From assembly GCA_027449545.1 (NCBI GenBank), contig DAIDLI010000152.1, positions 1 through 40,757 of the forward strand: a DNA stretch of 40,757 nt. The letters run 5' to 3'. Positions 10,085-34,582 of the stretch are shown here, piece by piece (positions within the stretch are counted from its first letter, which is position 1; the number at the start of each line of letters is the position of its first letter). This DNA is from Acidobacteriaceae bacterium (GTDB taxonomy: Bacteria > Acidobacteriota > Terriglobia > Terriglobales > Acidobacteriaceae). A program made the translations under genes and the position numbers. The notes beneath the pieces are model-generated. The model saw only the letters and a program-made list of their open reading frames with translations. It did not search any database and was not told the DNA's origin.

Positions 10085-10114
10085 TTGACAGCATGGAAGG
10101 CGCACGCCTAAGAT
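10085..10114 (+). promoter_or_regulatory. Sigma-70-like promoter of the giant PME-PG gene
   Basis: A perfect TTGACA at 10085-10090 and TAAGAT at 10109-10114 are spaced by 18 bases. The predicted transcript would start near 10121 and carry a leader of about 75 bases before the ATG at 10196. Confidence 0.6.
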
Positions 10115-10195: not shown

Positions 10196-13100
10196 ATGAC
10201 GCATCACGTTCGCAGAGTTGCAGGATATCTGTGCGCCTTGGCGGGCGCTCTCTTCCTTTGCGCGGCACTGAGCGCGCAGCAGCCGGTTGCCTTGCCCTAC
10301 ACCATGACCACGATTGGCGGAGGTCTTGTTGCCACGCCGGCGAGTGGCGCCTATTGCCCCGGCTCGACCACGGTGAAGGCGAGCAATAGCTACGGGGATG
10401 GCTGTGCGGCGGTGGCTGCCAAGTTCGGCAGCGGGGGCAGAGGCGGCGTTGCCGTAGATTCCTACGGCAACGTCTTCGTTTCGGACGACAGCAGCACCCT
10501 CGTGCAGATGATCGATCCGAATACCGGGGTGATGAGTCTTGTCGCTGGCGGCGGAAATAAATGCTCCGGCGCGGTCGATGAGTTGGGTGACGGCTGCGTG
10601 GCCGCTACGCAAACCAAGTTGAAATCATCGCGCGGCATCGCCACCGATCCCTATGGCAATGTGCTGTTGGCGGGCTACAACGACAACGCGATTCACCTCG
10701 TGTGCCGCGCGGCCTCGCCGCTGTGCGTAACCGGTACGCCCTCGCCCACGGCGGCGAACCCCATCCAGATCCAGGTGGGGTACATGGGGCTTGTTGCCGG
10801 TTGCATGAAGAGTTCGGGAAGTGCTGGCGTGGGCGCCCCCGGTCTGGACAACACCCCGGGCTTCACGACCTACTCGAATGCGGTTGCCGCCTTCCAAAAT
10901 GGTGGTTCTTGCAGTGCCTCGCTCGGTGAAGCGGATCAACCGCGCGGCGTTGGAGCGGATATCTATGGGAACGTCTACTATGCGGATACCAACACCTCGC
11001 GTACGCGCGTGGTTCTGGGCCCGCTGACCTCGCCGTACTTCAGCGGCAACAATCCGCTCTACGCAGCGCTCAAGACGCATTGGGCCAATCCGATCGCCGG
11101 CTATGTGTACACGGTGGTGAATGAGGCCGGCACCTCCACGAGCACCGGCGGCACGCCGACGACGACGGGCGCAAGCTGCTCGGATAACAACAGCGGCACC
11201 ACCTACACCGGAACGGCGACCGATATTCGCGGCGACGGATGCCCCTACTGGCTGAGCTCGGTCAACGCAAACGGCGGCAACACGAACGATGCGGCAACGG
11301 ATGCGGCCGGCAACATGGTCTTCACCGATCCGGGCAATGGCAATACCATCCTGGGTGGCCTACGAGTGTTGTTTGTGCAGGGTTGGGCCACGGCGGCCGA
11401 TGCAGCGAGCGCCGGCGCCACTGGCTCGGTGGCCACGGCGGGCGTGGCCATGTACAACGCGATCAAGCTCAACAATCCGGGCGTGACCCCGCAACCCGGC
11501 TTCCTCTACGCCCTGGCTGGCGGAAGCGGCATGCAGGCGTCTCCCAGCGGCAGCAGCCTCTCGGCAACGCCGGTGCTGGGCAATAATGTCCAGATTCCGG
11601 ATTCGCAGATCACGAAGGTGACGCTGAGCCCGCAGGGGAATATTTACATCGGCGACAACACCCGGGTGCTGTTCTTCGACATCTACACCGGGACGATCCG
11701 CACGCTACTCTCGTCATCGGGCAAATCCACCACGGCGGGCGCGTACTGCAACGGCACCTCCGGCGCAGTGGCGACGAGCGCATTCGGCGATGGTTGCCCG
11801 GCCTCCGCGACCGGCAGCTATGCCGAGTTCGGCAATGGAAATGGCTTGGGGATTGCTGTGGACGGCGAGGGCAATCTCTACATGTACGACGGCTCGTCCT
11901 ATGGTGGGGGGATGCTGGTGCGCGAGGTGCTGGCGCAAGGAATGGGTGTGCAGTCCTCCGCCACGCTGGCAGCGCTCTCGACAGTCAGCACGGCATATCC
12001 GCAGCAGTCGCTGGGGGCGGTGCAGACCCAGATTTTCGAAGCGCACTTTCCGTCGACCACGGCAGCCCCAGTCACACTTACCAACTCGACCAATTCGAAC
12101 CTGACCTATGGGGCACCGGCCTGCACGTCGAATAGCGACGGTTCCGCGGATTGCACGGTGGCGGTCACCTACACCCCCACAGCCACCGGCCTGCAATCCG
12201 CCGCCATGACCCTGGCCGTGCCAGGTGAGCAGATGACTCTCGGGCTGGGCAGCACGGTTACCGGTCCGGCGCTGGCGGTCGATCAAGCCACTTCGGGCGG
12301 CACGAGTGTGCAGGCTACGGCAACGCTGTTGAGCGGACATACTCCGGCGGCACTGGCGGTGGATGGCGCAGGCAATGTGTACGAAGCGAGCGGCACGAGC
12401 ATCCTGGAAGCTGCCGCATCCAGCCCTTCCACCACCAAGGTAGTGGCATCGAGCCTGTCTGCGGCTCCCGCGAAGCTCGCCCTGGACCAGGGCGGCGACA
12501 TCTACTACGTGAACGGCACATCCAGCATCCAGGCGCTCATGGTCAACACCGCAGGCGCGGCTGGGACGGGGACCTACAGCTCCATCAGCATTTCCTATAC
12601 GCCAAGCAATCTGGGCACGGCGGATCCGGTGGCGCTGGCTATGGACGCGGCCAACAATCTGCTGGTGGCCGACGAGCAAAACTCCGTGGGAACCATCTAC
12701 CGGGTGTCTCCGTCGGCTACTGGGGCCAACTCGCAGACCAATTGCTCCTATCCCAAGGCGAACAGCACGGCGCCCACCCTCTGCCAGTCCGCGATTGCAA
12801 CGACTGAGACCTTTGGCGTGATCTCGGCGATGACGGTCGATTCGGCAGGGAATATCTATGTGGCCGACAACAGCGCCGTCTACAAGCTGGTGCCCAGCAA
12901 TGGCGTCTATGCGGGAAGCACGGTTGTGAGCGGCGGAGGAACCACCGGGCTGGCAACGGATGCAGCCGGCGATCTCTATGTGCAGTCCGGATCGACGGTG
13001 ACCATGTATCCGGTGAGCGGCGCGTCCAGCGTGGTGGTCACCAGCGGCGCCACCACTCCTTCGGGTGTTGCCGTGGATGGAATGGGCAACGTCTACGTTG

Positions 13101-16100
13101 CCGACGCGGCAGCCGGCTCGGTGACCGAGGTGCAGCGCGGGACTCTGACCGAGAACTTTGGCTCCGACTCGACGCTCCAGTTCGCAGCGACCCTGACCAA
13201 CATCGGCAATCAGGCATCTGCGGCACAAACCGCTACGACTTCAACGGGCGCGCAGGCGGGAGATTTTGCGCTGAACGGCGGCGCAAGCAGCGGCTGCGTC
13301 TTCAATAACAGCCTGCTGGCAGGCATGAGCGCCGGGCAGTCCTGTACCCTCACTGCCACCTTCCCCGCGCTGGGCAATGCCCAGGAGACAGACTATATCG
13401 TTCTTGCGCCGGTTCTGCCGGCGACTAGCTCCAGCGGAATGCTCACGCTGACCGGCCTGGCTAATGCGGAAGCCTTCGACACCACCACGGCGATCGGAGC
13501 AGCGTCCACGACCAGCCCGAGTTATGCGGTGAGCGGAACCGAGGTCTCGTTCCCGATCACGGTGACGGCCAGCGCAACGTCCACAGACAACTCGGTAACG
13601 AACAATACCAATGGGCCCACAACGGCGGACTACGCGACTGTGAGCGTGGATGCCGGAGCGAGCACCAACTACTACTTCACCAGCACCAATGGACTTTCGG
13701 CGACGCTGACGCTGAATCTTTCCGGACTGACCGCAGGGCCGCACAGCTTCAAGGTCACCTTCCCTCAACAGGGTGCGCTGCTAGAGTCCAGCGCGACATC
13801 TGGGATCTTCACGATCGGGCAAGTAACAACCGCGGTCACCTGGACGCCGGCGAGCAATACGCAGCAGGTGAGCGCGGCATTGGGCACGGCGGTACTGAAT
13901 CCCACCATTTCGCCGGTGATCGACGGATCGTTTGTCTACAGCACGGTGAGCTCTCCCTCGTGCACTGCAACCAACGTTCCCACGGTGGATGCTTCCACCT
14001 ACCTGCCTGTTGGCAGCTATACGATCTACGCCACCTTCTGCCCGGCAGACTCCGCGGACTACGTCAGCTCGACCTCCTCGATCAGCTATACGGTGACAAA
14101 GGCCGATACGACAGCAGCGGTGGGCGCCTCCACGATGGTCGTTGCTCCCCAAGGCGGCAACTTCACGAAACTGAGTGATGCGTTGAGCGCGCTACCGCCC
14201 ACCGGCGGGACGATCTACGTCGCCCCCGGAACCTACAACGAGCAAGATGCGATCAGCTATCCCAACGTGCAATTGCGCGGGTTGGGTGGCGATCCTACCC
14301 AGGTGATCCTGAGCGGGGAGAACGGCGCCTTCCGGAGCGGCTCCGTTCCTACCGGCTTTACGATGGGGCCCGCAGGGAAGGGCGGCGATGAAGGCTCGGC
14401 CACACTGGACGTGAGCAAGAACGCGTTCATGGGCACGCAGGCTCTTACCTCCACCTACACGCCGAACAACTTCTACGCCGAGAACCTGACCATCCAGAAC
14501 ACCTACGATACGGATTCGACGACCACCAGCATGTATAAAGGCAGTTGCCAGGCGGGCGGCACGGCGGCCACCCTGGAGTCTCTGTATAACAGCAGCAATT
14601 TGTGCGGCTCGCAGGCGCTGGCCCTCTATATCAACTCCGATGGGGCCGTGCTGAACAATGTGAATCTGGTCAGCGCGCAGGATACGCTCTACGCCTCCAG
14701 CATCGGCTGCGGAACGTACTGCACGGTAGCCCGCGAATACTTCTGGAAGGGCTTGATCGTAGGCAACGTCGATTATGTGTTCGGCGACGCAGCGCTGGTC
14801 TTCGACCACACCAACTTCTTCACTACCTGGCATGGCACCAGCGCCGGCGGGACGGAGACGATCGAAGCGCAGAATAAGCGCTTCGCCACCGGAACTACGC
14901 CAGCCACCAGCAGTTCCAACAGCACCAGCCAGGATTATCTGAGCGGTTTCATCTGCAACGCCTGCACGCTGCTGTCGCAGAGCCCGGGCATGACCAAGCT
15001 CTACTACGGTCGCCCCTGGGATATCAGCACCAGCAACTATCCATCGTCGTATTCCACGTGGATCATGCTGAACTCGTACGTGGACCAGGTAAATCCCGGT
15101 GGCTGGGTCGGCTGGGATGGCAATCTGCTTTACCTGAACACCGCGACTTACGGCGAATACAACACGCAGGCCTACACCGATCCGTCGGTGGGCACGGCGC
15201 CCTATCCATACGCGCTCTTCAACAGCACGCCTTCGGTGCTTTACACGGCCGATGCGAGTGACGCGGGCCCTGGGTCGCTGCTGCCGGCCGGCGGCAACGA
15301 CGGCAGCTACGGTGTGACAGCGACCAGCAGCACGCCGGCGAATCGTGAGCAGTATGCGATCGGTCTCACTGCGGCGGGTGCTGCGCAGTACTATCCGGTA
15401 GCATTTCTCTCCACTCCGGTACCCTCCAGCAAACTTGCGTCAGGTCAATCGGCACAATGGAATCCGGTGGGAGCTTTGGCTTCGCTGGTCAACGGCTTTG
15501 TGCCGGTTGCCAGTGTGGGCGCACTTACCGCGGGCAGCAGTGTTACGATTTTGGGCCGCCCGCAGACCCCCGGTGCCGGCGTGGTTCCCACAGGAACCTA
15601 CAGCTTCTACGACAGCCTGAACAACAACCAGGCCTGCTCGTCGGCGTCGAGCAGTTGCACGGTCCTGGCCACAGGCTCGCTCGACGGCAGTGGCGAGGCG
15701 TACCTGACGACCAGTTCTCTGGCTTCGGGCACGCACTACATCACGATGGTGTACGGCGGCGACAACAACTTCAATGCCAGCACCTCAGGGACATACAGCA
15801 TCTACGTGCTTGAGAACGGGCAGACGGCAACCACCACAAGCCTCTTCATCAACAACACCAGTTCGACCGTCGGGACGCCGATCAGCGGAACGGTAACGGT
15901 CGCGCCGACTGCGGCTGCGGGCGTGGTGAACATCAGCCTCGATGGCGCGCCGGCAACCACGTGCACGCTCGCCAACGGCGCCTGCGCGTGGTCGATCAGC
16001 GGAGCGACGGCGGGAACACACACGATCCTGGCGAATTATGCGGGGGATTCCAGCTACGGCCTCAGTGCTTCGGCGACCGTTACAGTATCGGTGACGAATC

Positions 16101-19100
16101 CAGTCGCCACCGGCGATTCGCGCACCGTGGCCGAACCTTCCTTCCCGGCCGGGTGCCAGCAGTTGACGGCGACGCTGACCACCGACCCGGCGATTCAGGA
16201 TCTGGACGCCTCGGTGGATGCGAACAACAGCAATATTGACGGGGCGCGCATTCAGGCGGCCCTGAACGCCTGCTCGGCCACCGCGGTGGCCGCCAACACC
16301 AATATGGCCGTGGAACTCTCCGCAGACAGCACGGGTGCGCACAACGCCTTCCTCAGCGGTCCGCTGACCATGCCGTCCAACGTGACCCTTCTGGTGGATC
16401 CGAACGTTACGCTCTACTTCTCGCGCAACGTGCAGGACTACGACATGGTGCCGGGCACGCATACTTGCGGCACCATCAATAGCTCCTCGAACACCAAGAG
16501 CTGCCAACCGCTGATCGACATTCCGGGGACGTCAACCAATGTCGGAGTCATGGGCTACGGCAAGCTCAACGGCCGCGGCGGCGATCCATTGCTCAACGGC
16601 TTCGCGACATCCGGCTTCCAGGCGCCCGCTACATATACGTGGTGGAGCCTTGCCTCGCAGGCGGATGGCGAGGGCAATCAACAGAATCCGCGTTTCATCC
16701 AGATGGACAAGGGCGCGAGCAATATCACGCTCTACAAGATCACCATCCTCAACTCGCCCAACTTCCACGTGTCCACAACGGGTGCAGTTACGGGCTTTAC
16801 CGCTTGGGATGTGAAGATCGTGACGCCTACCACTGCACGCAATACTGACGGAATCGATCCCGCGAACCTGCAGAACGGCACTATCACGCAGTCCTGGATC
16901 TCCGACGGCGACGACAACGTGGCAGTCAGCGCTCCGGGAACGACCGCGCCAGCCAAGAACATCACCGTTACGAATAACCACTTCTATGCCGGTCACGGCG
17001 AGTCCATTGGCAGCTATACAGGCGCGGGCGTAAGCAATATTCTCTTCGACGGGAATATGGCCGCCGGAAACGCATGGGCTGGTTACGGCAGCGCAGCGCT
17101 GACCGGGGTTGCCGATGGAAACTCGACTGCGGTGCGTATCAAAACCGCAAATGATCGCGGCGGCCTGGTGACGAATATCCAGTATTCGAACTCCTGCTTC
17201 CTCGACCACAAAGACGACATCCAGTTCACGCCCTACTACAGCAGCGGCGATTCCACGAACCTGTTCCCGAGCTACACCGGGATCCTGATGCAAAACCTCG
17301 TCTTCGAGAACGATGCCTCGAGTCAAGGATTGGTGGAGTTGACGGGAGAGTACAACACCAACAGTGGCGCGGCGGTGGTCAATCCGTTGACGCTGACGAT
17401 GGACAATGTGTCTTTCCCGTCGACACTGAGCAGCCTTGTGAACTCCACCACACCGGTGGAATCCAGTTCCGCGTGGGGCAACGGCAATTCCAGCGGAGGA
17501 ACGGGACAGTACGTCAACCTCACGGTCGGACCGGGTCAAGTCTCCGGCGACTTCCTGACCGCGTATAACGCGCTGGTGGCAAACAGCGCGAACAACGACA
17601 CGCTGAACAACAAAATCTCGCTGACCAGCCTCAACCCGCCTGCCTGTACATTTACTTACCTGGCGCCCGAGCTGACCGGACCTACCGGGATGCCGGAGAC
17701 CATCACCTACGGCCAGCCCGCAGCGCTTGACGTGATCCTGACGCCCACCGTTGGGGGAGCGCCTTATCCCACGGGGACGGTTACCCTGACGGATTCGGCA
17801 ACCAGTAACACCTTTACCGGAACCTTCACTGGTGTGGGCGACACCCTCGCTGTGACGATTCCCGCATTGGATCTTACCGCCGGCAGCCATACCTTCAGCG
17901 TGACCGCATATGCGAACGATCCCAACTACCAAGTGCCGACGTCCTACCAGACGTTCGGATCGTATGCGGTGACCGTCAGCCAGGCGACGCCGACGGTGAC
18001 GCTGACCTCCAATATCAATCCGTCGGCTGCGGGAGCCGCTGTGACCTTTACGGCCACGCTACCGAGCGACGCAACTGGCACGGTCAGCTTCATGAACGGG
18101 AGCACGACGTTGACCAGCGGTGTTGCTGTCAGCAATGGCACTGCAACGTACACCACCTCATCGCTGGTGGCATCGACTACCGCATACCAGATCACGGCGG
18201 TGTACAGCGGCGACACCAACTACACCTCGGCTACCTCGAATGCCGTAGCCCAGCTTGTGAATGGGAATCAGGTGGCGATCAGCTGGACGCCGGCCGCTTC
18301 CATCACCTACGGGACGCCGCTGAGCGCTGAGCTGAACGCCACCGCTTCCTTTAACTCGACGCCGGTATCCGGTACCTTTGCCTTTACGGCCGCGCCAGCG
18401 GGCGGCACCGCTGGTCCGGTTACAGGGGCCACCGTACTTGGGGCCGGTAGCTACACTCTGACAGCAACCTTCACGCCTGCCGACCTGACTCTGTATGCGC
18501 AAGCCACGGCTACGGCGAAGATCACTGTGGGGCAGGCGACTCCGGCTATCGTCCTCAGCTCCAGCTTGAACCCAGTACTGCTGGATAATGCGGTGACATT
18601 CACCGCGAAGGTCAGCGGCACCGGCGGCACGCCCACAGGTACGGTCAACTTCCTGGATGGGACAACCGTGATTGGAGCAGGCACACTGAGCGGCGGCGCA
18701 GCAAGCTTCAGCAGTGCGGCGTTGACGGTGGGCGCGCATTCCATCACCGCGTCCTACAGCGGGGATACCAACTTCACCGCGGCCACCAGTTCTGTGCTCG
18801 CGCAATCGGTGATCACGATTACGATTGGTTCGCCGAGTTCGGGCAGCGGCGGAACGGGATCCGGAAGCGGCAGTTCGCAAACGATCACCCCGGGAGGAAC
18901 GGCTTCGTTCAGCTTGCCGATCGTCCCGAGCACAGGAACCAGCTTCCCAACCCCGCTGACGCTGAGTATCACGGGATTGCCAGCCGGAGCGACCGCTTCA
19001 CTGACGCCGAATGTGTGGGTGCAATCGACTCTGCCCACCACGGTCTGGACCCTACCGGCCAATACGCCGATCGGCGGCAACACGGTAATTAACATCACCC

Positions 19101-19396
19101 TCCCAAAATCCACCATGGCCCGCTTGGACGGGGCCGCGGGATTCGGGGCCGGGTTGGGGCCATTGGCGCTCGGAATGCTGCTGCTACCCTTTAGCTCCCG
19201 GTTCCGCCGGCGCTCAAGGCAGCTCCATACCTGGATCGTAGTTGTCGTCCTTTTGATCGCCGGTTTGGGCGCGTTCAGCGGGCTGGTCGCATGCGGAGGA
19301 AGCAGCAGCCAAACCGGCAAGACGTATCCCGTCACTGTAACGGTTGCGTCCGGACCCCTATCCACCAGCACTCAGCTCTCGATAACGGTGCAGTGA
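10196..19396 (+). CDS. Giant secreted pectinase: propeller + pectin methylesterase (CE8) + polygalacturonase (GH28) + Ig-like domains
   Basis: About 3066 residues; the ATG at 10196 follows GGGAGA (10185-10190). A Sec signal peptide (1-28, ending LSAQQ) leads to NHL-type propeller blades (about 70-600 and 710-975), ASH-like beta domains and an Ig-like pair (to 1305). The pectin methylesterase (1314-1662) has GTYNE, QALAL, QDTL (Asp1496), VDYVFG (nucleophile Asp1526) and GRPW (Arg1606), all intact. Two Ig-like domains (1762-1966) separate it from a GH28 polygalacturonase (1974-2485) with NTDGID (Asp2218), DGDDN (Asp2239-2240), GHG (His2267) and RIK (Arg2314, Lys2316). Four more Ig-like domains and a Gly/Ser linker follow. 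The end has two hydrophobic helices, an Arg-rich loop and LVACGG (Cys3033). The esterase should free carboxyls on homogalacturonan and GH28 hydrolyse the backbone. Both catalytic sets are complete, so activity is likely; surface location is inferred. Confidence 0.9.
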   Translation: MTHHVRRVAGYLCALAGALFLCAALSAQQPVALPYTMTTIGGGLVATPASGAYCPGSTTVKASNSYGDGCAAVAAKFGSGGRGGVAVDSYGNVFVSDDSSTLVQMIDPNTGVMSLVAGGGNKCSGAVDELGDGCVAATQTKLKSSRGIATDPYGNVLLAGYNDNAIHLVCRAASPLCVTGTPSPTAANPIQIQVGYMGLVAGCMKSSGSAGVGAPGLDNTPGFTTYSNAVAAFQNGGSCSASLGEADQPRGVGADIYGNVYYADTNTSRTRVVLGPLTSPYFSGNNPLYAALKTHWANPIAGYVYTVVNEAGTSTSTGGTPTTTGASCSDNNSGTTYTGTATDIRGDGCPYWLSSVNANGGNTNDAATDAAGNMVFTDPGNGNTILGGLRVLFVQGWATAADAASAGATGSVATAGVAMYNAIKLNNPGVTPQPGFLYALAGGSGMQASPSGSSLSATPVLGNNVQIPDSQITKVTLSPQGNIYIGDNTRVLFFDIYTGTIRTLLSSSGKSTTAGAYCNGTSGAVATSAFGDGCPASATGSYAEFGNGNGLGIAVDGEGNLYMYDGSSYGGGMLVREVLAQGMGVQSSATLAALSTVSTAYPQQSLGAVQTQIFEAHFPSTTAAPVTLTNSTNSNLTYGAPACTSNSDGSADCTVAVTYTPTATGLQSAAMTLAVPGEQMTLGLGSTVTGPALAVDQATSGGTSVQATATLLSGHTPAALAVDGAGNVYEASGTSILEAAASSPSTTKVVASSLSAAPAKLALDQGGDIYYVNGTSSIQALMVNTAGAAGTGTYSSISISYTPSNLGTADPVALAMDAANNLLVADEQNSVGTIYRVSPSATGANSQTNCSYPKANSTAPTLCQSAIATTETFGVISAMTVDSAGNIYVADNSAVYKLVPSNGVYAGSTVVSGGGTTGLATDAAGDLYVQSGSTVTMYPVSGASSVVVTSGATTPSGVAVDGMGNVYVADAAAGSVTEVQRGTLTENFGSDSTLQFAATLTNIGNQASAAQTATTSTGAQAGDFALNGGASSGCVFNNSLLAGMSAGQSCTLTATFPALGNAQETDYIVLAPVLPATSSSGMLTLTGLANAEAFDTTTAIGAASTTSPSYAVSGTEVSFPITVTASATSTDNSVTNNTNGPTTADYATVSVDAGASTNYYFTSTNGLSATLTLNLSGLTAGPHSFKVTFPQQGALLESSATSGIFTIGQVTTAVTWTPASNTQQVSAALGTAVLNPTISPVIDGSFVYSTVSSPSCTATNVPTVDASTYLPVGSYTIYATFCPADSADYVSSTSSISYTVTKADTTAAVGASTMVVAPQGGNFTKLSDALSALPPTGGTIYVAPGTYNEQDAISYPNVQLRGLGGDPTQVILSGENGAFRSGSVPTGFTMGPAGKGGDEGSATLDVSKNAFMGTQALTSTYTPNNFYAENLTIQNTYDTDSTTTSMYKGSCQAGGTAATLESLYNSSNLCGSQALALYINSDGAVLNNVNLVSAQDTLYASSIGCGTYCTVAREYFWKGLIVGNVDYVFGDAALVFDHTNFFTTWHGTSAGGTETIEAQNKRFATGTTPATSSSNSTSQDYLSGFICNACTLLSQSPGMTKLYYGRPWDISTSNYPSSYSTWIMLNSYVDQVNPGGWVGWDGNLLYLNTATYGEYNTQAYTDPSVGTAPYPYALFNSTPSVLYTADASDAGPGSLLPAGGNDGSYGVTATSSTPANREQYAIGLTAAGAAQYYPVAFLSTPVPSSKLASGQSAQWNPVGALASLVNGFVPVASVGALTAGSSVTILGRPQTPGAGVVPTGTYSFYDSLNNNQACSSASSSCTVLATGSLDGSGEAYLTTSSLASGTHYITMVYGGDNNFNASTSGTYSIYVLENGQTATTTSLFINNTSSTVGTPISGTVTVAPTAAAGVVNISLDGAPATTCTLANGACAWSISGATAGTHTILANYAGDSSYGLSASATVTVSVTNPVATGDSRTVAEPSFPAGCQQLTATLTTDPAIQDLDASVDANNSNIDGARIQAALNACSATAVAANTNMAVELSADSTGAHNAFLSGPLTMPSNVTLLVDPNVTLYFSRNVQDYDMVPGTHTCGTINSSSNTKSCQPLIDIPGTSTNVGVMGYGKLNGRGGDPLLNGFATSGFQAPATYTWWSLASQADGEGNQQNPRFIQMDKGASNITLYKITILNSPNFHVSTTGAVTGFTAWDVKIVTPTTARNTDGIDPANLQNGTITQSWISDGDDNVAVSAPGTTAPAKNITVTNNHFYAGHGESIGSYTGAGVSNILFDGNMAAGNAWAGYGSAALTGVADGNSTAVRIKTANDRGGLVTNIQYSNSCFLDHKDDIQFTPYYSSGDSTNLFPSYTGILMQNLVFENDASSQGLVELTGEYNTNSGAAVVNPLTLTMDNVSFPSTLSSLVNSTTPVESSSAWGNGNSSGGTGQYVNLTVGPGQVSGDFLTAYNALVANSANNDTLNNKISLTSLNPPACTFTYLAPELTGPTGMPETITYGQPAALDVILTPTVGGAPYPTGTVTLTDSATSNTFTGTFTGVGDTLAVTIPALDLTAGSHTFSVTAYANDPNYQVPTSYQTFGSYAVTVSQATPTVTLTSNINPSAAGAAVTFTATLPSDATGTVSFMNGSTTLTSGVAVSNGTATYTTSSLVASTTAYQITAVYSGDTNYTSATSNAVAQLVNGNQVAISWTPAASITYGTPLSAELNATASFNSTPVSGTFAFTAAPAGGTAGPVTGATVLGAGSYTLTATFTPADLTLYAQATATAKITVGQATPAIVLSSSLNPVLLDNAVTFTAKVSGTGGTPTGTVNFLDGTTVIGAGTLSGGAASFSSAALTVGAHSITASYSGDTNFTAATSSVLAQSVITITIGSPSSGSGGTGSGSGSSQTITPGGTASFSLPIVPSTGTSFPTPLTLSITGLPAGATASLTPNVWVQSTLPTTVWTLPANTPIGGNTVINITLPKSTMARLDGAAGFGAGLGPLALGMLLLPFSSRFRRRSRQLHTWIVVVVLLIAGLGAFSGLVACGGSSSQTGKTYPVTVTVASGPLSTSTQLSITVQ

Positions 19397-19780: not shown

Positions 19781-19963
19781 CCGTATTGTCTTCCCCTCAA
19801 AGATCCCCACCGATGAGGAACTAGTTAGCAGCAAGTGTGTCCAGAAGTACATCTGGCGAGATCTATGCGCAACAGCTATGCGCAGAGACTGCGGGGGCCT
19901 GTGTCCCTCGGCCCAGCCAAGGTTCTGCACATTCACATCCAACCTGTCCCCGGAGATCGACTT

Positions 19964-22900
19964 ATGGCATTCACAAGCCCTGTAAGCTCTGCGAACGTTT
20001 CCAGCCCGCTCAGACGGCAGATGGCGCGGTGTGCTGCTGTTCTCGCGAGCTGCCTTTGCTCCGCCCGGATGCGGATGTTGCTGTGGATTGCGGCGGCTGT
20101 CCTGACCGCAGCGCCTGCGTCGGCTCAGGCGGTGCAGTTCTTTGGACCGTTCACCTCATATCAACAAGGCGAGGTAGTGTTCGCACAGGGGATCGTGGCT
20201 AACGCGCAGGGAGACCTGTACGTGTCCGGCACGACGGCGATGGGATATGTGCCGGTGGATGCCAATGGCAATCCAATCCTGGCGCAACAGCAGGGCACCT
20301 CTGCCTATGGAAGCACGGTGTTGGGAATGGCGATCGATTCGGCCAACAACATCTACCGTGCCGATCCGGGCGAGCAAGACGTGCAGATGTACACCTACAG
20401 TGGGTCTACCACGAATTTTGTGCGCAGCACGATTGGGACGGGATGGCAGTATCCGACTGGCATAGCCGTAGACAGCAACCTGAATGTCTATGTTCTGGAT
20501 GGTGGCGCGGGGGCGATCGTGAAGCTGTCTCCGAACGGCAGCGGCGGATTCAATCAGAGCACACTCTATACAAATACGCTGTTAAAGGGCACCACGGGCC
20601 TGTCCATCGATAGCGCGGGGGACTTCTTTATCGCCTCTGGCCCAGACTACGGGCCGGTATACCAAACTGTTCCGGGCAATCCGAATGTGCCGGCGGCAGT
20701 TTACAAGGTGACGAATACCGGGTCTGGCTATACGCTTGCCAGCATTGGCAGCGGCTGGAACAGCCCGTCGTACACGCAGGTTGATAGTTTCGGCAACGTA
20801 TGGGTAGCCGATTATGGAGCGGGCGAAATCGTACTGCTGGTGCCTTCCGGCGGCAGCTATATCCAAAGCAATTATCAGAGCATTCCCACACTGCGCGCTC
20901 TGAATATCAATAAGGCCGGCAAAGTGTACGGCTTCGCTTACGGGAACGGAGAGGCGCAGATCTGGGCGGGTGGTTCGGCTCCGCACAATATGGGTTCCTA
21001 TGCGGTTGGCACGCCGGCGCCGACGGTCACGGTTACGATCACTTTCCTGAATTCGGCCACGGTGGGCGGCTTCCATGTCGTGACTCAGGGCGCAACGGGC
21101 GGCGACTTCAGTGTGGCCAGTGGCGGAAGCTGCGCAGCGGGTAGCTTCACTGCGCAGCAGACCTGCACGCTCAATGTAGGGTTTACGCCAAAGATTGCGG
21201 GACTGCGCGAAGGCGCAATCACGGTTACCGACACGAACGGCAATGTGCTGGGCACGAACTACATCTATGGGACGGGTCAGGCCCCGCTGGCCGCGCTCAC
21301 GCCCGGTACGATCAGCACCGTTGTCGGGACGGGAACCGCTTGCACTACCGGGAGCTGTGGCGACGGAGGAGCGGCGGCGAGCGCATCGCTGAACGTCCCG
21401 GTGGCCGTCGTGCAGGACTCGGTGGGAGACCTCTATCTTGCGGATTCGAGCTCTTACCGGGTGCGGAAGGTGGATACCGCCGGGAACATCACAACCGTGG
21501 CCGGCAATGGCAAGGCATGCAGCTCTCCCTCGGGGCCTTGCGGGGACGGTGGGGCGGCAACCAGCGCCAGCTTGCAACCCGTGGGCCTGGCTCTGGATGG
21601 GGCCGGTACCTTGTATATCTCCGATAATCAGGGTAATCGCATCCGCGCGGTGAACCTGACGACGGGCATCATTACGACGGTTGCGGGCACGGGCACGCCG
21701 TGCGCATCGTCGACCTCCGCCTGCGGAGACAACGGGGCGGCCATCAGCGCGGAGTTCAACGCGCCCAACGGCATCGCCGTGGATGGAATGGGCAATCTGC
21801 TGGTGGCGGACAGCGGCGATCACCGGATACGCTCGGTGAACCTAGCCGCGGGGACGGTTAGCACGGTGGCCGGAACCGGTACGGCGTGCAGCTCCACCAC
21901 CGCAGCCTGCGGGGATGGAGGTCCGGCGACGGCGGCCAACCTCACTGCTCCGCTGGGCGTGGCCGTCGATCAGAGCGGCAACTACTACATTGCGGATTAC
22001 AGGGATAACCGGGTGCGCGAGATCTCGTACCTGACCGGCGCCATTTCCACGGTTGCCGGGACCGGAGCCGCCTGCTCCTCGGCGGGATGCGGCGACGGTG
22101 GCGCAGCCAGCAGTGCTCAACTGAACCAGCCGATAGGTGTGGCTGTCGATCCTGCCGGTGATATCTATGTAACCGATGCGGGAGATTCGGCTGTCCGCAT
22201 GGTATCGATCTCCAGCGGCAAGATTGAGCTGGTGGCTGGCAACTACACTCAGTGCAGCGCGACGACTAACGCCTGCGGTGATGGCGGATCGGCCACCAGC
22301 GCTAACCTGGACGGCCCCGGCGGTCTTCTTGTCGACAAGTCCGGCAACCTGCTGTTTACCGACAGCCTGGATAACCGCATCCGCGCAGTGAACGTGAGCA
22401 GCGCGGGATCGGTGAGTTTCGCCGACACGGTGGCGGGGTCGGAGAGCAGCGATAGTCCTGCAATGGTGATGCTGAGCAATGCTGGCAATGCGGCGTTGAC
22501 CATCTCCGCGGCGGCTTCGGGTACGAATCCTGCATTTCCGGGCAATTTCCAGAACGATGCAGGCAAGACCACCTGCGCGATCGTGACCACGCAGGCCGGT
22601 TCACTAGCGGCCGGTTCCACGTGCCTGCTGGGCATCGATTTCGTGCCCGGCAATCCCGGACCCTTCAACGGCAGCGTGGTCTTCACGGATAACTCGGGCG
22701 GCGCGGCGGGTGCGATGCAGTCGATCCCGGTAGCGGGCACGGGAATGTCTGCTGCGCTGGTCTTCACGCCCACGCCGACCGGCGCGCCGGGCACGCCGCA
22801 GACAGCGCTGATCTCGATTCCCAACGGCAAGTCGGTGGCGAGCGTGATGGTGGTGACGCAGGGGATTCAGAACCTGGACTTCACCGCGGACCCGAGCACG

Positions 22901-25618
22901 ACCTGCACCAGCGGAGCAACGGGATCCTGCAGTGTTGTGGTGGACTTCAATCCCAAGGCACCTGGTTTGCGGCTTGGCGCTGCGATCGTAACGCTGAACG
23001 ACGGCACGACGCTGACCACCTATGTTTTCGGAATCGGGCAGGGGCCGGTGCTGCAGTTCCAGCCGGGAGCGATGAGCACGGTAGCCGGAACCGGCTCCCC
23101 CTGCTACAGCTCCACCGGGACGGGCTGCGGTGACGGCGGCAGTCCGCTGACGGCCAGCTTCAGCCATGCGAACACGGTGATCTACGACGCGGCCGGGAAT
23201 GCCTTCGTGGCCGATCTGGGCGCCAGCGTGGTGCGTGAAATTACGACCGCGGGCGTTGTCTCCACGGTGGCCGGCGAGGAGAATACGCAATGCGGCAGCA
23301 CGGCTGCAGGGTCCTGTGGGGACGGCGGAGCGGCGACCTCGGCGCAGCTGAACGGGCCTTCGGATATCGCGATTGACGGCGCGGGCAACCTGTACATCGC
23401 CGACAAAGGCGATAACCGGGTGCGCGTGGTGAATTTGATCACCGGGACCATCCAGGGCTTCGCGGGCAGCGGGAGCATCTGCTCCACGCCGAGCGGAGTG
23501 GGAAGCTGTGGGGACGGCAGCGCGGCCATCAACGCGAAGATGGGCTCGATTGACGGCATTGCAGCGGATGCCGAAGGCAACGTCTACATCGGCGATACCG
23601 ACGATCACGAGGTGCGCGAGGTGATCTACCGGACGGGCGACATCACCACCATCGCCGGAACCGGGATGCTGTGCGCGCAGCCGACCAGCGCTTGCGGCGA
23701 CGGCGGCCAGGCCACCGCAGCCCAAGTCAACTACCCCAACAAGATTCGCCTCGACTCGCAGGGCAATATCTACATTGCGGATGCTTCCGCCAACCGCGCT
23801 CGCGAGATCAACATCAGCACCGGGGTAATTTCTACAGTGGCGGGCAGCGGAGCCACCTGCTCGACACCAGGGTGCGGAGATGGCGGGCAAGCGACCCAGG
23901 CGCAGATGAGCACGGTCTGGGGGCTGGCTCTGGACGGGGCCGATAACCTGTACGTAGTCGATAATGGCGACGATACGATTCGCTTTGTGAATCACACCAC
24001 CGGCATCATCAGCACGGTTGTGGGGAACGGGCAGCAGTGCCCCAGCCCGACCATGGCCTGCGGCGACGGCGGCAATGGCACGCAGGCGGAGTTGAGTTCC
24101 CCGGTGTGCGTAGCCTTCAATCCGCAAGGCAACATCGATGTCTGCGATTCCAACGGCTTGAAGGTCCGGCAACTCAGCTTCGGGGCATCGAACCTGAGCT
24201 TCGCCTCGACCGATGTGGGCTCGACGAGCACGGACAGCCCGCAGCCGATCATGATTGTAAACGCTGGCAATGCGGCGCTGACCTTCCCGGCGCCTGCTAC
24301 CGAAACCAATCCGAGTTTTACCCTCGACGGCAACAAGACCACCTGCTCCGTCGTGGGCACCGCGGGATCGGCTGGCAGCCTGGCGGTAGGCGGATCCTGC
24401 ACCCTGGGCATCGACTTCTCGCCCACGCTGCCTGGGCCCAATAACGGATCACTGCGGCTGACCGATAACAACTTCGGGCTGAGCGGGCAGATCCAGACGA
24501 TCACTCTGTCCGGTACCGGCATCCAGGTGATTCCCACCATCGCCTGGCCGCAGCCGGGGGCAATCGTGTACGGAACGAACTTGAGCGCGGCGCTGAACGC
24601 CGTGGCCATGATCGGCTCCTCCAGCATTGCGGGCACCTATACCTATACGGCCGCGCCCGCCGGCGGCACTGCCGGCGCGGTGACGGCGGCATCGGTGCTG
24701 CCCGTGGGAACCTATACCCTCAACGTCAGCTTCACGCCGACCAGCAACAACTACAAGCCGGCGACGGGAAGCGTCACCCTGACCGTGAACAAGGCCACGC
24801 CGAGTGTGCTGCTGGCTTCGTCTGCGAATCCGGTGTTGCTGGAAAACCAGATTACGCTGACGGCAACGGTCTCCTCGAGCGCCAGCACCCCCACCGGGTC
24901 GGTGACGTTCTACAACGGGGTGACGGCGATGGGGCCGGCTGTTCCGCTGACCTCCGGCACGGCCACGCTGATGATGAGCTCACTGCCGTTGGGGACCGAC
25001 TCCATCACCGCGGTTTATACCGGCGACAGAAACTTTGTTGGCGGCGCCAGTAATGTGCTGCCGGAGAAGATCGAGGACTTCAGCCTCACCATCTCCCCGG
25101 CTTCGGGAAGCACCACCTCGCAGACCGTGATCCCGGGCAACACTGCGACTTACAACCTGGTCGTAAGCCCCGTGGCTCCGGCAACCACATTCCCGGCAGT
25201 GATCAATCTGTCGGTGACGGGATTGCCGCCAGGGGTGAGTTACACCATCACGCCGCAATCGTTGGCATCTGGCTCCGGCTCGACTCCCGTAACCCTGACG
25301 CTGACTACCACCCTTGGCTCGGCGGCGAATCACGGCGGAACGCAGGTTGCCCCGTTTGGCGAGCGGATGGCGCCCATCGCGCTGGGATTGTTGCTGCTGC
25401 CGTTTGCGCGGCGCATGCGGCGGACAGGCAGACGTCTGGGCCGTATCTTCACTTTGCTGTTGGTGCTGGCGGCAGGTGCTGCTGCTCTGGCGGGGCTCAG
25501 TGGCTGCGGCGCGCCGGCAGGTTTCTTCGCCCAGGGGCAGAAGACTTACACCGTCTCGGTGACCGGGACCTCCGGCCCCCTGTCGCACTCGACCAGTGTT
25601 TCGCTCACCATTCAATAA
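19964..25618 (+). CDS. Giant exported NHL beta-propeller / Ig-like repeat protein with cysteine-paired blades
   Basis: About 1884 residues. GGAGA (19952-19956) supports the ATG at 19964; a shorter start at 20069 would give a more classical signal peptide (MRMLLWIAAAVLTAAPASAQA). An irregular propeller (about 45-340) and an ASH-like domain come first. Then come six NHL blades (about 448-812), two ASH-like domains, six more NHL blades (about 1035-1409), an ASH-like domain and two Ig-like domains (about 1520-1704). Each of the twelve blades carries Cys, four to nine residues, then CGDGG or a variant, a strand, and the NHL core of the type GxAxDxxGNxYxAD. The C-terminus repeats the module of the pectinase giant: LALGLLLLPFARR, Arg-rich loop, hydrophobic helix, LSGCG (Cys1848), then an Ig-strand tail. 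No catalytic motif was recognised. The protein probably binds or organises ligands or glycans at the cell surface. A beta-barrel gene follows 13 bases downstream. Confidence 0.87.
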   Translation: MAFTSPVSSANVSSPLRRQMARCAAVLASCLCSARMRMLLWIAAAVLTAAPASAQAVQFFGPFTSYQQGEVVFAQGIVANAQGDLYVSGTTAMGYVPVDANGNPILAQQQGTSAYGSTVLGMAIDSANNIYRADPGEQDVQMYTYSGSTTNFVRSTIGTGWQYPTGIAVDSNLNVYVLDGGAGAIVKLSPNGSGGFNQSTLYTNTLLKGTTGLSIDSAGDFFIASGPDYGPVYQTVPGNPNVPAAVYKVTNTGSGYTLASIGSGWNSPSYTQVDSFGNVWVADYGAGEIVLLVPSGGSYIQSNYQSIPTLRALNINKAGKVYGFAYGNGEAQIWAGGSAPHNMGSYAVGTPAPTVTVTITFLNSATVGGFHVVTQGATGGDFSVASGGSCAAGSFTAQQTCTLNVGFTPKIAGLREGAITVTDTNGNVLGTNYIYGTGQAPLAALTPGTISTVVGTGTACTTGSCGDGGAAASASLNVPVAVVQDSVGDLYLADSSSYRVRKVDTAGNITTVAGNGKACSSPSGPCGDGGAATSASLQPVGLALDGAGTLYISDNQGNRIRAVNLTTGIITTVAGTGTPCASSTSACGDNGAAISAEFNAPNGIAVDGMGNLLVADSGDHRIRSVNLAAGTVSTVAGTGTACSSTTAACGDGGPATAANLTAPLGVAVDQSGNYYIADYRDNRVREISYLTGAISTVAGTGAACSSAGCGDGGAASSAQLNQPIGVAVDPAGDIYVTDAGDSAVRMVSISSGKIELVAGNYTQCSATTNACGDGGSATSANLDGPGGLLVDKSGNLLFTDSLDNRIRAVNVSSAGSVSFADTVAGSESSDSPAMVMLSNAGNAALTISAAASGTNPAFPGNFQNDAGKTTCAIVTTQAGSLAAGSTCLLGIDFVPGNPGPFNGSVVFTDNSGGAAGAMQSIPVAGTGMSAALVFTPTPTGAPGTPQTALISIPNGKSVASVMVVTQGIQNLDFTADPSTTCTSGATGSCSVVVDFNPKAPGLRLGAAIVTLNDGTTLTTYVFGIGQGPVLQFQPGAMSTVAGTGSPCYSSTGTGCGDGGSPLTASFSHANTVIYDAAGNAFVADLGASVVREITTAGVVSTVAGEENTQCGSTAAGSCGDGGAATSAQLNGPSDIAIDGAGNLYIADKGDNRVRVVNLITGTIQGFAGSGSICSTPSGVGSCGDGSAAINAKMGSIDGIAADAEGNVYIGDTDDHEVREVIYRTGDITTIAGTGMLCAQPTSACGDGGQATAAQVNYPNKIRLDSQGNIYIADASANRAREINISTGVISTVAGSGATCSTPGCGDGGQATQAQMSTVWGLALDGADNLYVVDNGDDTIRFVNHTTGIISTVVGNGQQCPSPTMACGDGGNGTQAELSSPVCVAFNPQGNIDVCDSNGLKVRQLSFGASNLSFASTDVGSTSTDSPQPIMIVNAGNAALTFPAPATETNPSFTLDGNKTTCSVVGTAGSAGSLAVGGSCTLGIDFSPTLPGPNNGSLRLTDNNFGLSGQIQTITLSGTGIQVIPTIAWPQPGAIVYGTNLSAALNAVAMIGSSSIAGTYTYTAAPAGGTAGAVTAASVLPVGTYTLNVSFTPTSNNYKPATGSVTLTVNKATPSVLLASSANPVLLENQITLTATVSSSASTPTGSVTFYNGVTAMGPAVPLTSGTATLMMSSLPLGTDSITAVYTGDRNFVGGASNVLPEKIEDFSLTISPASGSTTSQTVIPGNTATYNLVVSPVAPATTFPAVINLSVTGLPPGVSYTITPQSLASGSGSTPVTLTLTTTLGSAANHGGTQVAPFGERMAPIALGLLLLPFARRMRRTGRRLGRIFTLLLVLAAGAAALAGLSGCGAPAGFFAQGQKTYTVSVTGTSGPLSHSTSVSLTIQ
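21307..22400 (+). repeat. Six tandem propeller blades, cysteine-paired (first set)
   Basis: Six imperfect repeats of about 52-60 codons encode one blade each. Every copy contains a short TVAGxG strand, a Cys pair in C-x(4-7)-CGD(G/N)G, and an NHL core. The repeats are clear at protein level and partly at DNA level, and are part of the giant gene. Confidence 0.8.
23070..24190 (+). repeat. Six tandem propeller blades, cysteine-paired (second set)
   Basis: A second run of six blades has the same Cys-pair plus GDG(G/S) signature, separated from the first by two ASH-like domains. Blade three has the longest inter-cysteine loop and GDGS instead of GDGG. The twin arrangement suggests duplication of a whole propeller. 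Confidence 0.8.
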
Positions 25619-27059: not shown

Positions 27060-28121
27060 CTATTTGGACGTTGTTGTTGCCGGCCGATCGAAGGCGGTGA
27101 TCACAGGCAGAACGTTGCCGTTGGCATCAAAGAAGCCGCGGCCGCGCAACGACCCCTCGGCGGCTGGTTCCCACCAGAAGACGCCTTGGCCAAGCCCGTC
27201 GGGAATGGCGCGCACCGCCGCGTCGACGGCGCGCAGAAACTGAAGCTGGCCCTGCGGATTCTCGGGAAAATCCTGCTTCTTTGCGGGCCGGCCGCTGGGC
27301 GTCCAGTTGGCCGCGGTCTCCACGACGATGATGGGCAGGTGATAGCGCAGCGCAAGATCGTGCAGATTGCCACGTAGTTTGACGATGTTGCCGTGCCAGA
27401 AAGGGTAATAAGAGAGCCCGATGACATCGAAGGGCACATGGTGGGCGATGAGATTGTCGAAGAACCAGACCGCCGCGTCGTAATCGCCACTGCGCTCGAT
27501 GTGAATCATGATGCGGGGGCGGGGTCCAGGCTGCGTACCGGCATACACCCCGCGAATGCCGGCCCGGAGTAGATCGGCGAAGTTGTCCCAGTTGTCGGGC
27601 AGCTTGCCGTCGGGCCACAGCATGCCATTGGTCACCTCATTCCCGACCTGCACCATATCTGGTGTTACGCCCTGATGGGCAAAGGCAGCCAGCGTATCGC
27701 GTGTGTAGACGAAGACCTGTTCAACGAGTTGCTTGTGCTTGAGCCGCTTCCATGCGGCAGGCGTGAACTGTTTGCCCGGGTCGGCCCAGGTATCGGAGTA
27801 GTGCAGGTCAAGCAGGATATGAAAGCCCAGGGCGTGGGCACGACGGGCGAGCGCCAGGGTGTAGGGCAGATCGTTGGGGAGCTTGTCAGGGCTGGCCGCG
27901 GGATCGTGAAAGAGGCGCAACCGAACCCAATTGTAATGATGCTCGCGCAGCAGGGAGAGGACATCAACCGGTTTCCCGCCTTCTTTAAAGACGATTCCAT
28001 CCTGCTCGCACTTGGCGAGAAACGACACGTCCGCGCCGATGGCGTAACCCTGCCCCATCCCATGAGGCGCGATCAGCAGGGCAACGGCAATCATCCAGAG
28101 TACACTGACGGATTTACGCAT
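27060..28121 (-). CDS. Arabinogalactan endo-beta-1,4-galactanase (GH53)
   Basis: This 353-residue secreted enzyme has a signal peptide at 1-24 (MRKSVSVLWMIAVALLIAPHG). The GH53 TIM barrel is recognisable from ADVSFLAKCEQDG, VRLRLFHDP, LLDLHYSDTWADPGKQ, then VGNEVTNGMLWP with the acid/base Glu162, and IIVVETAANW with the nucleophile Glu268. The WADPGKQ and EVTNGMLWP segments are diagnostic for this family. It should cleave internal beta-1,4-galactosyl bonds in type I (arabino)galactan, the side chains of pectic rhamnogalacturonan I, releasing oligosaccharides for the adjacent receptor and GH35 enzyme. No good ribosome-binding site is visible before the ATG, and a very stable hairpin sits just upstream, so expression is probably lower than that of the receptor. 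Confidence 0.93.
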   Translation of the reverse strand: MRKSVSVLWMIAVALLIAPHGMGQGYAIGADVSFLAKCEQDGIVFKEGGKPVDVLSLLREHHYNWVRLRLFHDPAASPDKLPNDLPYTLALARRAHALGFHILLDLHYSDTWADPGKQFTPAAWKRLKHKQLVEQVFVYTRDTLAAFAHQGVTPDMVQVGNEVTNGMLWPDGKLPDNWDNFADLLRAGIRGVYAGTQPGPRPRIMIHIERSGDYDAAVWFFDNLIAHHVPFDVIGLSYYPFWHGNIVKLRGNLHDLALRYHLPIIVVETAANWTPSGRPAKKQDFPENPQGQLQFLRAVDAAVRAIPDGLGQGVFWWEPAAEGSLRGRGFFDANGNVLPVITAFDRPATTTSK

Positions 28122-28198: not shown

Positions 28199-31100
28199 CT
28201 AGAAATAATACTTTGCGGCCAACTGGATCTCGCGGTGGCCGGTTTTGTTGTCCACCGTGCCGGCGGAAGGTGAGATGGTAGGACCGCCCGCCGCTGCAAA
28301 TCCCATGTACATATTGGGGTCGGAAGCGATGAACTCGTTCCAGGGATGATTGAACAGGTTGAAGGCCTCACCACGGATCTCGAGACTGCGATTTTCCCGC
28401 ATGGCGAAAGTCTTGAAGATGCCAGTGGAGTCATTGATGAAGGCCGGTCCGTGGATGTACGGCAGCCGGTAGGTGCCATTTTGCAGATAGGATGGCGCGG
28501 CGAAGCAGGCGGGGTTGAAGTATTGCCCGCTCTTCAGGCCCTTGCGGGGGTCGCAGATCATCTTGGGAACCGCGGTTTCGTCCGGAGTGCCGTCAGCGAA
28601 CGCGCCGCCGTTGGTTGCGAGTGAGATGTTGGTATTTTGCTGGCCGTTGATGACCGGTCCGGATACTGTGCCCCAGATGCCGAACGTGTTGCGGTTGGCG
28701 GCGTATTCGGATCCAAAGTTGTTGGAGATCGGACCGCCGGTCATGGCCTGGAAGATTCCGGAGAGCTGCCATCCGTCGAAGAAGCCGCTTGCCAGCTTGC
28801 TTCCGCCCAGGTCTTTGCTGAACGCCGGCAGCTTCAAATAGTACGAGAAGCTGAGGATCTGGGAACGGTCGAATGGCGCAGGCCCGTACCAGCGCTTCAT
28901 GTCGAAGGGGTCTTCCGCGTTGTAGGCGAGCGTCTTCCCAAAGGTATAGCTGCCCCAGTAGTTCAGCCATCCTTTCTGCCGCGTCACCATCAACTGCAAT
29001 GCGTTGTAGTTGGAGTTGAGGTTATGGAAGTGGGTGCTGATGTCGCCGTAGTCCGGATAAGGACGGAGATAGGGTGTGGCGTAGTCATCGTAATAAGTGC
29101 CGTACCACGGGCCGGTTTCGGCGCCCTCGGGAACAGCGTTACGAATGCCGTACCCCACTAGATTGTGGCTGGAGTTGCCTACGTAATTGACCTCGATCTT
29201 GTTGGCGCCTGCGAAGACATGGGAGAGCGCCAGGTTCCAGGAATAGGTGACCGGGGCGTGATGATCGGTGGGGTTCGCGGAGCCCCAGACCGTGGGCGCA
29301 CACAACGAATAGGGTATCTGGGAGATGCTTGCGAGCGTATACGCTGAGTTAGATGTGCAGGGCGTGCCGCCGCCTCCGGAATACTCCTGGACCACCGTGA
29401 AGTTAGGCGGGGCCTCGATGGCAGAGTAGGCGTTGATCCCGGGGTCAACATAGTAGTTGGTGCCAATGCCGCCGCGCACGATGGTTTTTCCGCCCCCGAA
29501 TACGTCGTAGGCGAATCCAAGATCAGGCGCCCATTGGAAGCTGAGCGGCTGGGATCCGGACATGGGTACGCTGGGAGTGGTCGAGTGGCTCTGGATTCCG
29601 CTGTAAGAGGTGTAATTCGGGGTGGAGGTGGCCACATAGGCCGCGGGATTGAAGATGGCAATGCGCCCTTTGCGGTCGTACCACCAGCCAATATGATCCA
29701 CGCGCAGGCCGTAGTTCAGGGTCAGGCGCGAAGTCGCCTTCCAGGTATCCTGCGCAAAGAAATCGAAGCGATTGGCCTCCATCTGCGCCATAATGTTGCT
29801 CGAGCTTTGCGACCACTCGCAGGTGTAGCCCAGCAGCAGGTCGGCCCAATCATTGCCCGAGAGGCCGCAGTAGGATTGTGTGGACACAAAGCCGTTGTCA
29901 TTGCCGGTGGTGAGATTGTTAAAGCGCCCCACCTCTGTATAGAACCCCGCTTTGAGCAGGTGCCGCCCGAGGAGCTTGGTGAGAGCTTCGTTGAAGGTAT
30001 AAGTGTTCTCCACACTGGTGAACGGCGGCGCCTCGCCGCCGCCAATATACAACTGGTCGTTTGCAATTTCGGTATTGCCGGCTTCGAATTGCACGTTGGG
30101 AATGAGGCCAGAACCGTTGGCGAAGAGAAAAGCATAGGGGTAATGCAAGGCGGTCGTGGAGACGGTGTTCAAATTGCTGAGCGCTTGGCGCAGGGTAAAG
30201 CGCGTGTACGCAAGCGATGCTTCGTTCGTTAACGAGGAGCTCAAGGTGTTGGTCAGCACCATGTTGATGGAATCGGAGGCATCCTTGCCGGTCTGATAGG
30301 CGGGATAAGGCACCTGGTTCCAGACGTTGTACGGCCCATACGGCCAGGGCACGCTTTCATTCTCGTGGTTGTAGCGGCCGGAAAGGTGCGTGTTGTCACT
30401 GATGGCGTAGTCGAGTTTGAGGATCTCTTGATTGCGTGGGTCGGAGGTAGTGAAGTCGGTGATCAGGTTGTATCCGCCCTGGTCCGCGGGATTCACGTTG
30501 GGCAGAGGAAAGGCACTCAGCAGGATCTGGCCAGCGGGGTCGATGGCGCTGCTCTGGATGTGGCCCCAGGAATTCGAGCCGTAGACCTGGTTGGCGCAGG
30601 CGGCGCTGTAGTGGCTGCCGCCGCAGGGTTGGCTGCTCACCGGCCAGAAGAGGTAGCCGTTGCTGGCGTTCGAGAGCGCGTTCAAATAGCCGGTGTCGCT
30701 AAAGTCGCCGGTGCGCATGGCAGCGGTGGGCACGGCCGCCTTGCGAACCCCCTGGTCTACATGCTGCTGGGCAAGTTCACTCGCCGCGAAGAAGAAGAGC
30801 TTTGCGTGATCGCGGCTGAGGCCGGGCCACAGCACCGGGCCGCCAATATTGACGCCGGGATAGTATAGGCTGCTTTGCGGCCTGGCAAAGCCGATGGATT
30901 TTTCCTGCCAGTCATTGGCGTTGAAGTTGTAATTGCGCGCCGTAAGATAAGCTTCGCCGTGGAAGGATCGGCCTCCGGACTTAGTTTCGGTCGACACGAC
31001 TACGGGGCCATTCGGTTCAGCGGCAGAGTACGCGGCAGATTCGACCTTGAGCTCGGAGATCATATCGACATTGGGCGTTACGGCCACGGCTCCCGCGGTG

Positions 31101-31750: not shown

Positions 31751-31865
31751 ACCTGCTCCTCTCCTGGCCTTCCTGAATTGCAGCTTTCCTTCCCTCAGCG
31801 ATCCGCCAGTGGTGGCTTCATCTGGATCCTGCATGAGGGGGAAAGCCTGCGGTATCGAATCATAT

Positions 31866-34490: not shown

Positions 34491-34582
34491 CAAGGATTCC
34501 CTCTGTGGTTTCTGTCCCGATCTTCGGCACATGATGCTGGAGTGGCCGAGAAAGAATACTCTATGCCCGGAACCTGGCGTTT

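Follow-up and report, generated by a model that had tools for sequence, protein, structure and literature searches.

The window, a stretch of 40,757 bases, makes up the whole of one contig (C152) in a 4.43-Mb assembly of 221 contigs, and its genome belongs to a family, the Acidobacteriaceae, that includes Terriglobus albidus. A giant gene at 10196..19396 on the forward strand, identified from its open frame, its domains and its orthologs, encodes a pectin methylesterase (PME) and a polygalacturonase in one chain. Translation yielded 3,066 residues with zero internal stops. The ATG at 10196 is preceded by a purine run, GGGAG, and opens a typical signal peptide; an alternative in-frame start, GTG, lies 39 bases upstream at 10157. 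A promoter-like site, TTGACA-18-TAAGAT, was located on the forward strand at 10085..10114, 81 bases before the ATG, with a match to the consensus at 10 of 12 positions, and we regard it as weak because two such sites were observed in 9000-20000 against 3.4 expected from shuffled sequence. Upstream of the giant are housekeeping genes for a phosphoribosyltransferase, a carbamoyltransferase, an amidohydrolase and a glycine cleavage T protein. No structured RNA was detected within the window at the gathering score, and no tRNA was found in it.

Pfam matches in the giant were to Pectinesterase, Glyco_hydro_28, Big_3_5 (five stretches), SBBP and NHL, and at their E-values they are not attributable to chance. 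The chain, with all of its features on the forward strand, begins with a Sec-type signal peptide (about residues 1-28; 10196..10279), whose hydrophobic stretch spans residues 7-28 and whose cleavage site (ALSA/QQ) was placed by eye. Ten blade motifs fell into two clusters, five at residues 85-553 and five at 720-958, indicating two propellers. Propeller I, delimited by pattern count, covers about residues 35-590 (10298..11965), and propeller II, which also carries the SBBP and NHL matches, about residues 691-990 (12266..13165). Two Ig-like blocks (residues 1091-1300; 13466..14095), recognized from Big_3_5 stretches and conservation with boundaries by inspection, precede the PME (CE8) domain at residues 1301-1760 (14096..15475), and two Ig-like linkers defined by block conservation (residues 1761-1968; 15476..16099) connect it to the GH28 domain at residues 1969-2480 (16100..17635). 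Further Ig-like domains lie 3' of GH28 at about residues 2490-2875 (17663..18820), with the best Big_3_5 stretch at 2788-2872 and the other boundaries by inspection. The chain ends in a last beta domain with a lipo-invert-like tail (residues 2877-3066; 18824..19393), assigned by reading of the sequence and a match to NF058595. With the limits of the propellers and other blocks set by our own choice, about 68% of the residues belong to neither catalytic block. Domains, blades and tails were delimited by regular expressions that follow known family motifs.

The initial annotation had proposed one polypeptide with a complete PME and a complete polygalacturonase, and a domain search with PF01095 and PF00295 confirmed that both families score above their cut-offs within the single 3,066-residue frame. 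PF01095 matched residues 1464-1658 with 73.9 bits (cut-off 27), the match spanning only profile positions 97-262 of 298 and missing the first 96. A profile made from seven giant PMEs matched the tomato PME 1xg2 (E = 1.1e-26) with part of the N-terminal region also aligned, and its QDTLY, DxxFG and GRP blocks aligned with tomato and carrot PME. The two catalytic Asp residues, the Arg of GRPW and conserved Gln residues of the giant's PME align with solved PMEs; Q1473, D1496, D1526 and R1606 mark these sites in the window's giant. The catalytic Asp, Asp and Arg are invariant in all seven giant rows of alignment A5, and an eighth giant (from genome G339) contains the blocks QDTIYA, DYIFGDA and GRPY by reading. 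In the other six rows of A5, Tyr occupies the position of the GRPW Trp, and therefore PME activity could differ among the giants. AlphaFold2 run on the seven giant PME rows produced no usable PME fold (mean pLDDT 28.7).

PF00295 matched residues 2101-2376 with 117.6 bits (cut-off 22.9). The best solved relative of this domain was 1bhe (E = 7.4e-48), which we take to be the polygalacturonase of Erwinia (Pectobacterium) carotovora, and the exo-enzyme 3jur followed at E = 3.2e-4. Because 1bhe is so far ahead of the exo-enzyme, the giant's GH28 is probably an endo-type polygalacturonase. D2218, D2239, D2240, H2267, R2314 and K2316 pair with D202, D223, D224, H251, R280 and K282 of 1bhe, and the NTD, DD, H and RIK sites all aligned. 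The giant's domain thus shares its catalytic residues with 1bhe along query residues 2015-2409, whereas 1bhe itself is a 376-residue chain without the scaffold. The GH28 catalytic set is invariant in the five giant rows and the one compact row of alignment A6. We assume the catalytic roles of the aligned PME residues and of the GH28 residues of the giant and 1bhe. All eight residues that had initially been assigned to the two active sites (D1496, D1526, R1606, D2218, D2239, D2240, H2267 and K2316) carry the expected letter, and both catalytic sets are complete. At an E-value limit of 0.1 Pfam gave 7 families, and none of them was a pectate lyase family such as that of the PmeC5-type proteins, which join PME to PL9.

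The next gene (19835..25618, forward strand) encodes a protein of 1,927 residues that has NHL/propeller and Ig domains and ends in the same tail, as identified by Pfam and NF058595, and its true start is probably further inside. No catalytic glycan-active family was matched in this protein, which shows 42% identity to the giant's final 372 residues and about 27-37% identity to the post-GH28 propeller part of other giants. Further downstream are three genes on the reverse strand, encoding a GH53 endo-beta-1,4-galactanase (27060..28121; PF07745, E = 1.5e-89), an outer-membrane beta-barrel with a carboxypeptidase-regulatory domain that is a probable TonB-dependent importer (28199..31834; PF25183, E = 5.4e-138) and a GH35 beta-galactosidase (31866..34751; PF01301, E = 1.4e-50). 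They are followed on the forward strand by a sensor histidine kinase with a Reg_prop propeller (34618..37590), recognized from the frame list and Pfam. GH53 and GH35 enzymes have established roles that fit the use of pectic galactan, and the four genes at 27060-37590 likely constitute a pectic-galactan utilisation locus. Matches to the barrel family number 63 in the window's genome, with some being pieces of one gene. A third NHL/Ig-type protein, at 38172-40757 on the forward strand, runs off the contig end.

Single-frame giants with the same domain order (two propellers, Ig, PME, Ig, GH28, Ig) and lengths of 3,298-4,213 amino acids were found in four other genomes, two of them those of Terriglobus albidus and Granulicella paludicola. 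A frameshift or assembly error, named at the outset as what would refute the fusion, is excluded by the uninterrupted frame and by these orthologs: four intact single frames in other genomes mean that the PME-GH28 fusion does not stem from a frameshift or a chimera. Complete giants with both enzymes therefore number five (P0001 of the window, P0002, P0003, P0008 and P0009), and two giants carry PME without GH28, P0006 according to Pfam and P0010 of G339 by reading; another, at locus L081, is cut by the contig end after the PME. Because some giants contain both domains and others PME only, GH28 has been gained or lost within the scaffold family. An NHL-like protein adjoins each PME-only giant, at L085 (6422-14436) and at L133 of G339; it was recognized by Pfam NHL at 12514-14436 in L085 and by eye in a 753-residue frame of L133.

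The best-conserved blocks between the window's giant and the four other GH28-bearing giants were the PME (54-66% identity), the Ig domain that follows it (56-63%), GH28 (56-66%) and propeller I (43-58%), and the remaining blocks were 23-56% identical. Against the six other aligned giants, propeller I was 37-58% identical, the first inter-enzyme Ig linker 53-63% and the second 23-42%. Pfam matches, alignments and block conservation across the giants thus bear out a conserved propeller/Ig scaffold around the enzyme pair, as had been suggested. Compared with the window's giant, the four others with GH28 have an inter-enzyme linker longer by about 80-95 residues, and they contain extra NHL/propeller matches after GH28 that the window's giant lacks. 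The giant and the next gene could together correspond to one chain of the other giants divided in two, with shared repeats as the alternative. Conserved gene neighbours were not found at the loci inspected in T. albidus, G098, MAS3.bin168 and G. paludicola. The neighbours differ among these four loci, and a conserved operon around the giant was rejected. A barrel gene lies directly upstream of the giant only in G. paludicola, and in G098 it is on the other strand, beyond one gene.

The distribution of the giants was examined in two draws of genomes. Among 150 genomes of the family, with the best four candidates per genome scored, at least 33 contained a PME and at least three, including the window's genome, contained one in a frame of more than 2,000 codons, with GH28 in the same frame in each of the three. 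The other four genomes of the window's genus in this draw (G008, G144, G083 and G124) yielded no giant. Among 297 genomes of the phylum, with the best five candidates per genome scored, at least four had a giant-type PME, all of them in family f1. A contig scan of named genomes returned seven loci, five of which were giants (T. albidus DSM 26559, G. paludicola DSM 22464 and three metagenome assemblies) and two of which were remote matches with 25-31% identity in Anaeroplasma and Acholeplasmatales assemblies. A plasmid collection contained no near match to the giant gene, and at the protein level its PME matched 28 plasmid records, all below 60% identity and at most 32% among the 12 listed; mobile carriage of the giant was rejected on these results.

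The C-terminus of the giant carries an anchor-like tail that the initial annotation did not mention. It consists of a hydrophobic segment (about residues 2979-2999), the basic run RFRRRSR (3002-3008), a second hydrophobic segment (3012-3030), a lipobox-like LVAC with C3033 (codon at 19292..19294, forward strand) and a final 33 residues with two predicted strands. The same hydrophobic-basic-hydrophobic-Cys-beta order characterizes the NCBIfam family NF058595 (invert_tail, "lipo-invert putative C-terminal anchoring domain"), which is itself called putative, but the giant's tail scored 33.8 and 35.1 bits, below the cut-off of 37, and so resembles the family without being a member. The next gene scored above that cut-off, with 46.1 bits for the whole protein and 53.3 in the genome search. 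In the literature searched, no paper was found for the name lipo-invert. The reading of the tail is the newest part of the giant's story.

The window's genome gave 16 NF058595 matches at E <= 0.01, nine of them above the cut-off; at the same E-value 11 of 14 control genomes also gave matches, none above the cut-off. The ten tails of alignment A7 had been picked by a cysteine-requiring pattern and were a biased selection, and for this reason the check was redone on all 16 matches without the pattern. Thirteen proved to be C-terminal tails, with the protein ending 33-59 residues past a Cys that is preceded by Ala, Gly or Ser in all 13. The weakest three run past the lipobox-like site, look like N-terminal lipoprotein signals and were dismissed as chance. 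In the phylum draw, matches at E <= 1e-8 occurred in 5 of 60 genomes, namely in each of the five f1 genomes but not in any of the 55 remaining ones, and in no control genome. By reading, three of the seven complete giants (P0001, P0008 and P0009) have the tail and four (P0002, P0003, P0006 and P0010) do not, and so it is not essential to the giant architecture. A model of the tail (mean pLDDT 56.4, pTM 0.42) placed strands on both sides of one helix and matched no solved structure at E <= 0.001. The giant's C-terminus looks like a membrane anchor, but with a model of low confidence and the tail in three of seven giants, anchoring itself is an inference.

We favor, with moderate confidence, the view that the giant is a secreted, probably outer-membrane-tethered pectinase that demethylesterifies and then cuts homogalacturonan, encoded beside genes for pectic galactan. 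The signal peptide would export the chain, the hydrophobic-Arg-hydrophobic-lipobox tail would hold its C-terminus to the membrane, and the propellers and Ig domains would extend both catalytic domains away from the cell; propeller I may also bind the cell wall, as its conservation suggests. The PME, given its complete catalytic set, would strip methyl esters off homogalacturonan, and the endo-polygalacturonase, two Ig domains away and likewise complete, would cut the freed runs of galacturonate. Such action of PME and then GH28 in turn, as the initial annotation had it, is likely. Pectin products, together with galactan fragments generated by GH53 and GH35, may then enter through TonB-type barrels.

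The giant might instead be released, as a free or vesicle-borne pectinase. Its propellers would then bind the plant cell wall, and its tail would be a remnant or a signal needed only transiently for export. Release would fit three observations: on reading, no such tail is present in four of the seven complete giants, the window's tail scores under the NF058595 cut-off, and propeller I is well conserved. We nevertheless consider release somewhat unlikely, since every element of the tail is present in the window's giant, the next gene has the same tail above the cut-off, and 13 of the 16 matches in the genome end their proteins 33-59 residues after a Cys preceded by Ala, Gly or Ser. As to how a tethered giant would be held, we advance, as a speculation to which we give little credence, an inverted lipoprotein anchor in the outer membrane. 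In this anchor the hydrophobic stretch preceding C3033 would serve as an internal lipoprotein signal, C3033 would carry the lipid, and the last 33 residues would add their two strands to the final Ig-like sandwich, the rest of which is encoded ahead of the membrane segments. Were the chain also cleaved ahead of the cysteine, strand complementation with a small lipidated hairpin would be all that kept the 3,000-residue enzyme in place. If this arrangement were real, the tail, here over threshold only in genomes of family f1, would be a general display system of that family.

The scaffold could also serve mainly as an adhesin or matrix protein, with the catalytic domains secondary, so that the giant attaches to plant litter and loosens pectin locally. 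The 68% of the chain outside the catalytic blocks, the retention of the PME scaffold without GH28 in P0006 and P0010, and the occurrence in the next gene of a scaffold of the same kind with no matched catalytic glycan-active family are consistent with such a role. We judge it unlikely, given that the catalytic domains rank with the best-conserved blocks and have kept their catalytic residues.

Among the matches listed in the literature search, the scope of which lay largely outside subscription papers, there was no described CE8-GH28 chain of the giant's kind. A known system for comparison comes from Butyrivibrio fibrisolvens, a Firmicute. The PmeC5-type proteins of this organism are reported to be secreted chains of about 2,000-2,200 residues with a PME, a PL9 pectate lyase and cell-wall-binding domains (PMC12109409). 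Like the giant, these proteins join a secreted PME to a pectin-cutting domain, but the cutter is a PL9 pectate lyase and not GH28, the accessory domains are different and the organism lives in the rumen (PMC12109409). The giant is a variant of multimodular pectinases, a kind already known. In it a plant-litter enzyme is coupled to an uncharacterised domain that resembles a membrane anchor, and it could reveal how very large proteins are displayed by soil Acidobacteria.

A second single-chain pair was found in the window's genome, P0004, which contains GH28 followed by PME in 814 residues and has no propeller or Ig match. Its locus (L048, 76-2520, on contig C160) shares the contig with a barrel match at 4761-7427 and a further GH28 at 17592-18290. 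In total, the genome has 12 GH28 matches and three PME matches. Compact GH28-then-PME frames of the family sample measured 739-887 codons, and matching of frames between the PME and GH28 searches gave at least 17 compact loci in at least 15 of the 150 family genomes. With G047, where both motif sets lie in one 810-codon frame, the total is at least 18 loci in at least 16 genomes. A further compact GH28-PME protein, WP_209160125.1 ("pectinesterase family protein"), is encoded on a Rhizobium plasmid typed as conjugative. WP_209160125.1 and P0004 resemble the giant in that polygalacturonase and PME, with their catalytic motifs present, share one chain, but the compact form has the reverse order and 739-887 rather than 3,066 codons or residues, P0004 is without propeller and Ig domains, and the two forms fall in separate clades.

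These compact pairs, in at least 16 of the 150 family genomes and on the Rhizobium plasmid, run against the idea that a single-chain PME-polygalacturonase in a bacterium is remarkable in itself, as does the published PME-PL9 giant of Butyrivibrio, and they rule out a unique one. The proposed search for other one-chain proteins found giants with the same scaffold in four other genomes and compact fusions that are common in the family. The pairing of PME and GH28 is ordinary in the family; the giant format is not.

A tree built from 42 PME domains placed the eight giants in one clade (100/100), separate from 17 compact-labelled and 17 single-labelled rows. The compact label was given by motif or by a frame of more than 700 codons, and two labels are doubtful: L079 is compact by length only, and the row L068_solo_446 is a piece, cut by the locus end, of a 739-codon frame counted as a fusion. 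With 37 GH28 domains, the tree likewise united the five giants in one clade (100/100), separate from the 15 compact and the 17 single rows, and the row grouped with them was a long-branch single, L035 (96/87). Both trees have long branches, and the letter make-up was flagged in seven of the eight giant PME rows and four of the five giant GH28 rows. Because the giant PME and GH28 each form a clade of their own that excludes the compact rows, these results suggest that the giants and the compact form represent two separate fusions in opposite orders. It is improbable that the giant is a permuted, inflated copy of the compact GH28-then-PME fusion, for although both forms occur in the window's genome, with GH28 parts 38% identical over 399 columns and PME parts 32% identical over 370, the two giant clades, to be read with caution for their long branches and skewed letter make-up, exclude the compact rows. 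One family provides a comparison set of a two-enzyme giant, a PME-only giant, a compact fusion of opposite order and single enzymes, and with it a natural way to ask whether pectin is broken down faster when a demethylesterase is tethered to a depolymerase. On contig C42 of G021, at 5869-10392, two compact fusion genes on opposite strands are arranged tail to tail.
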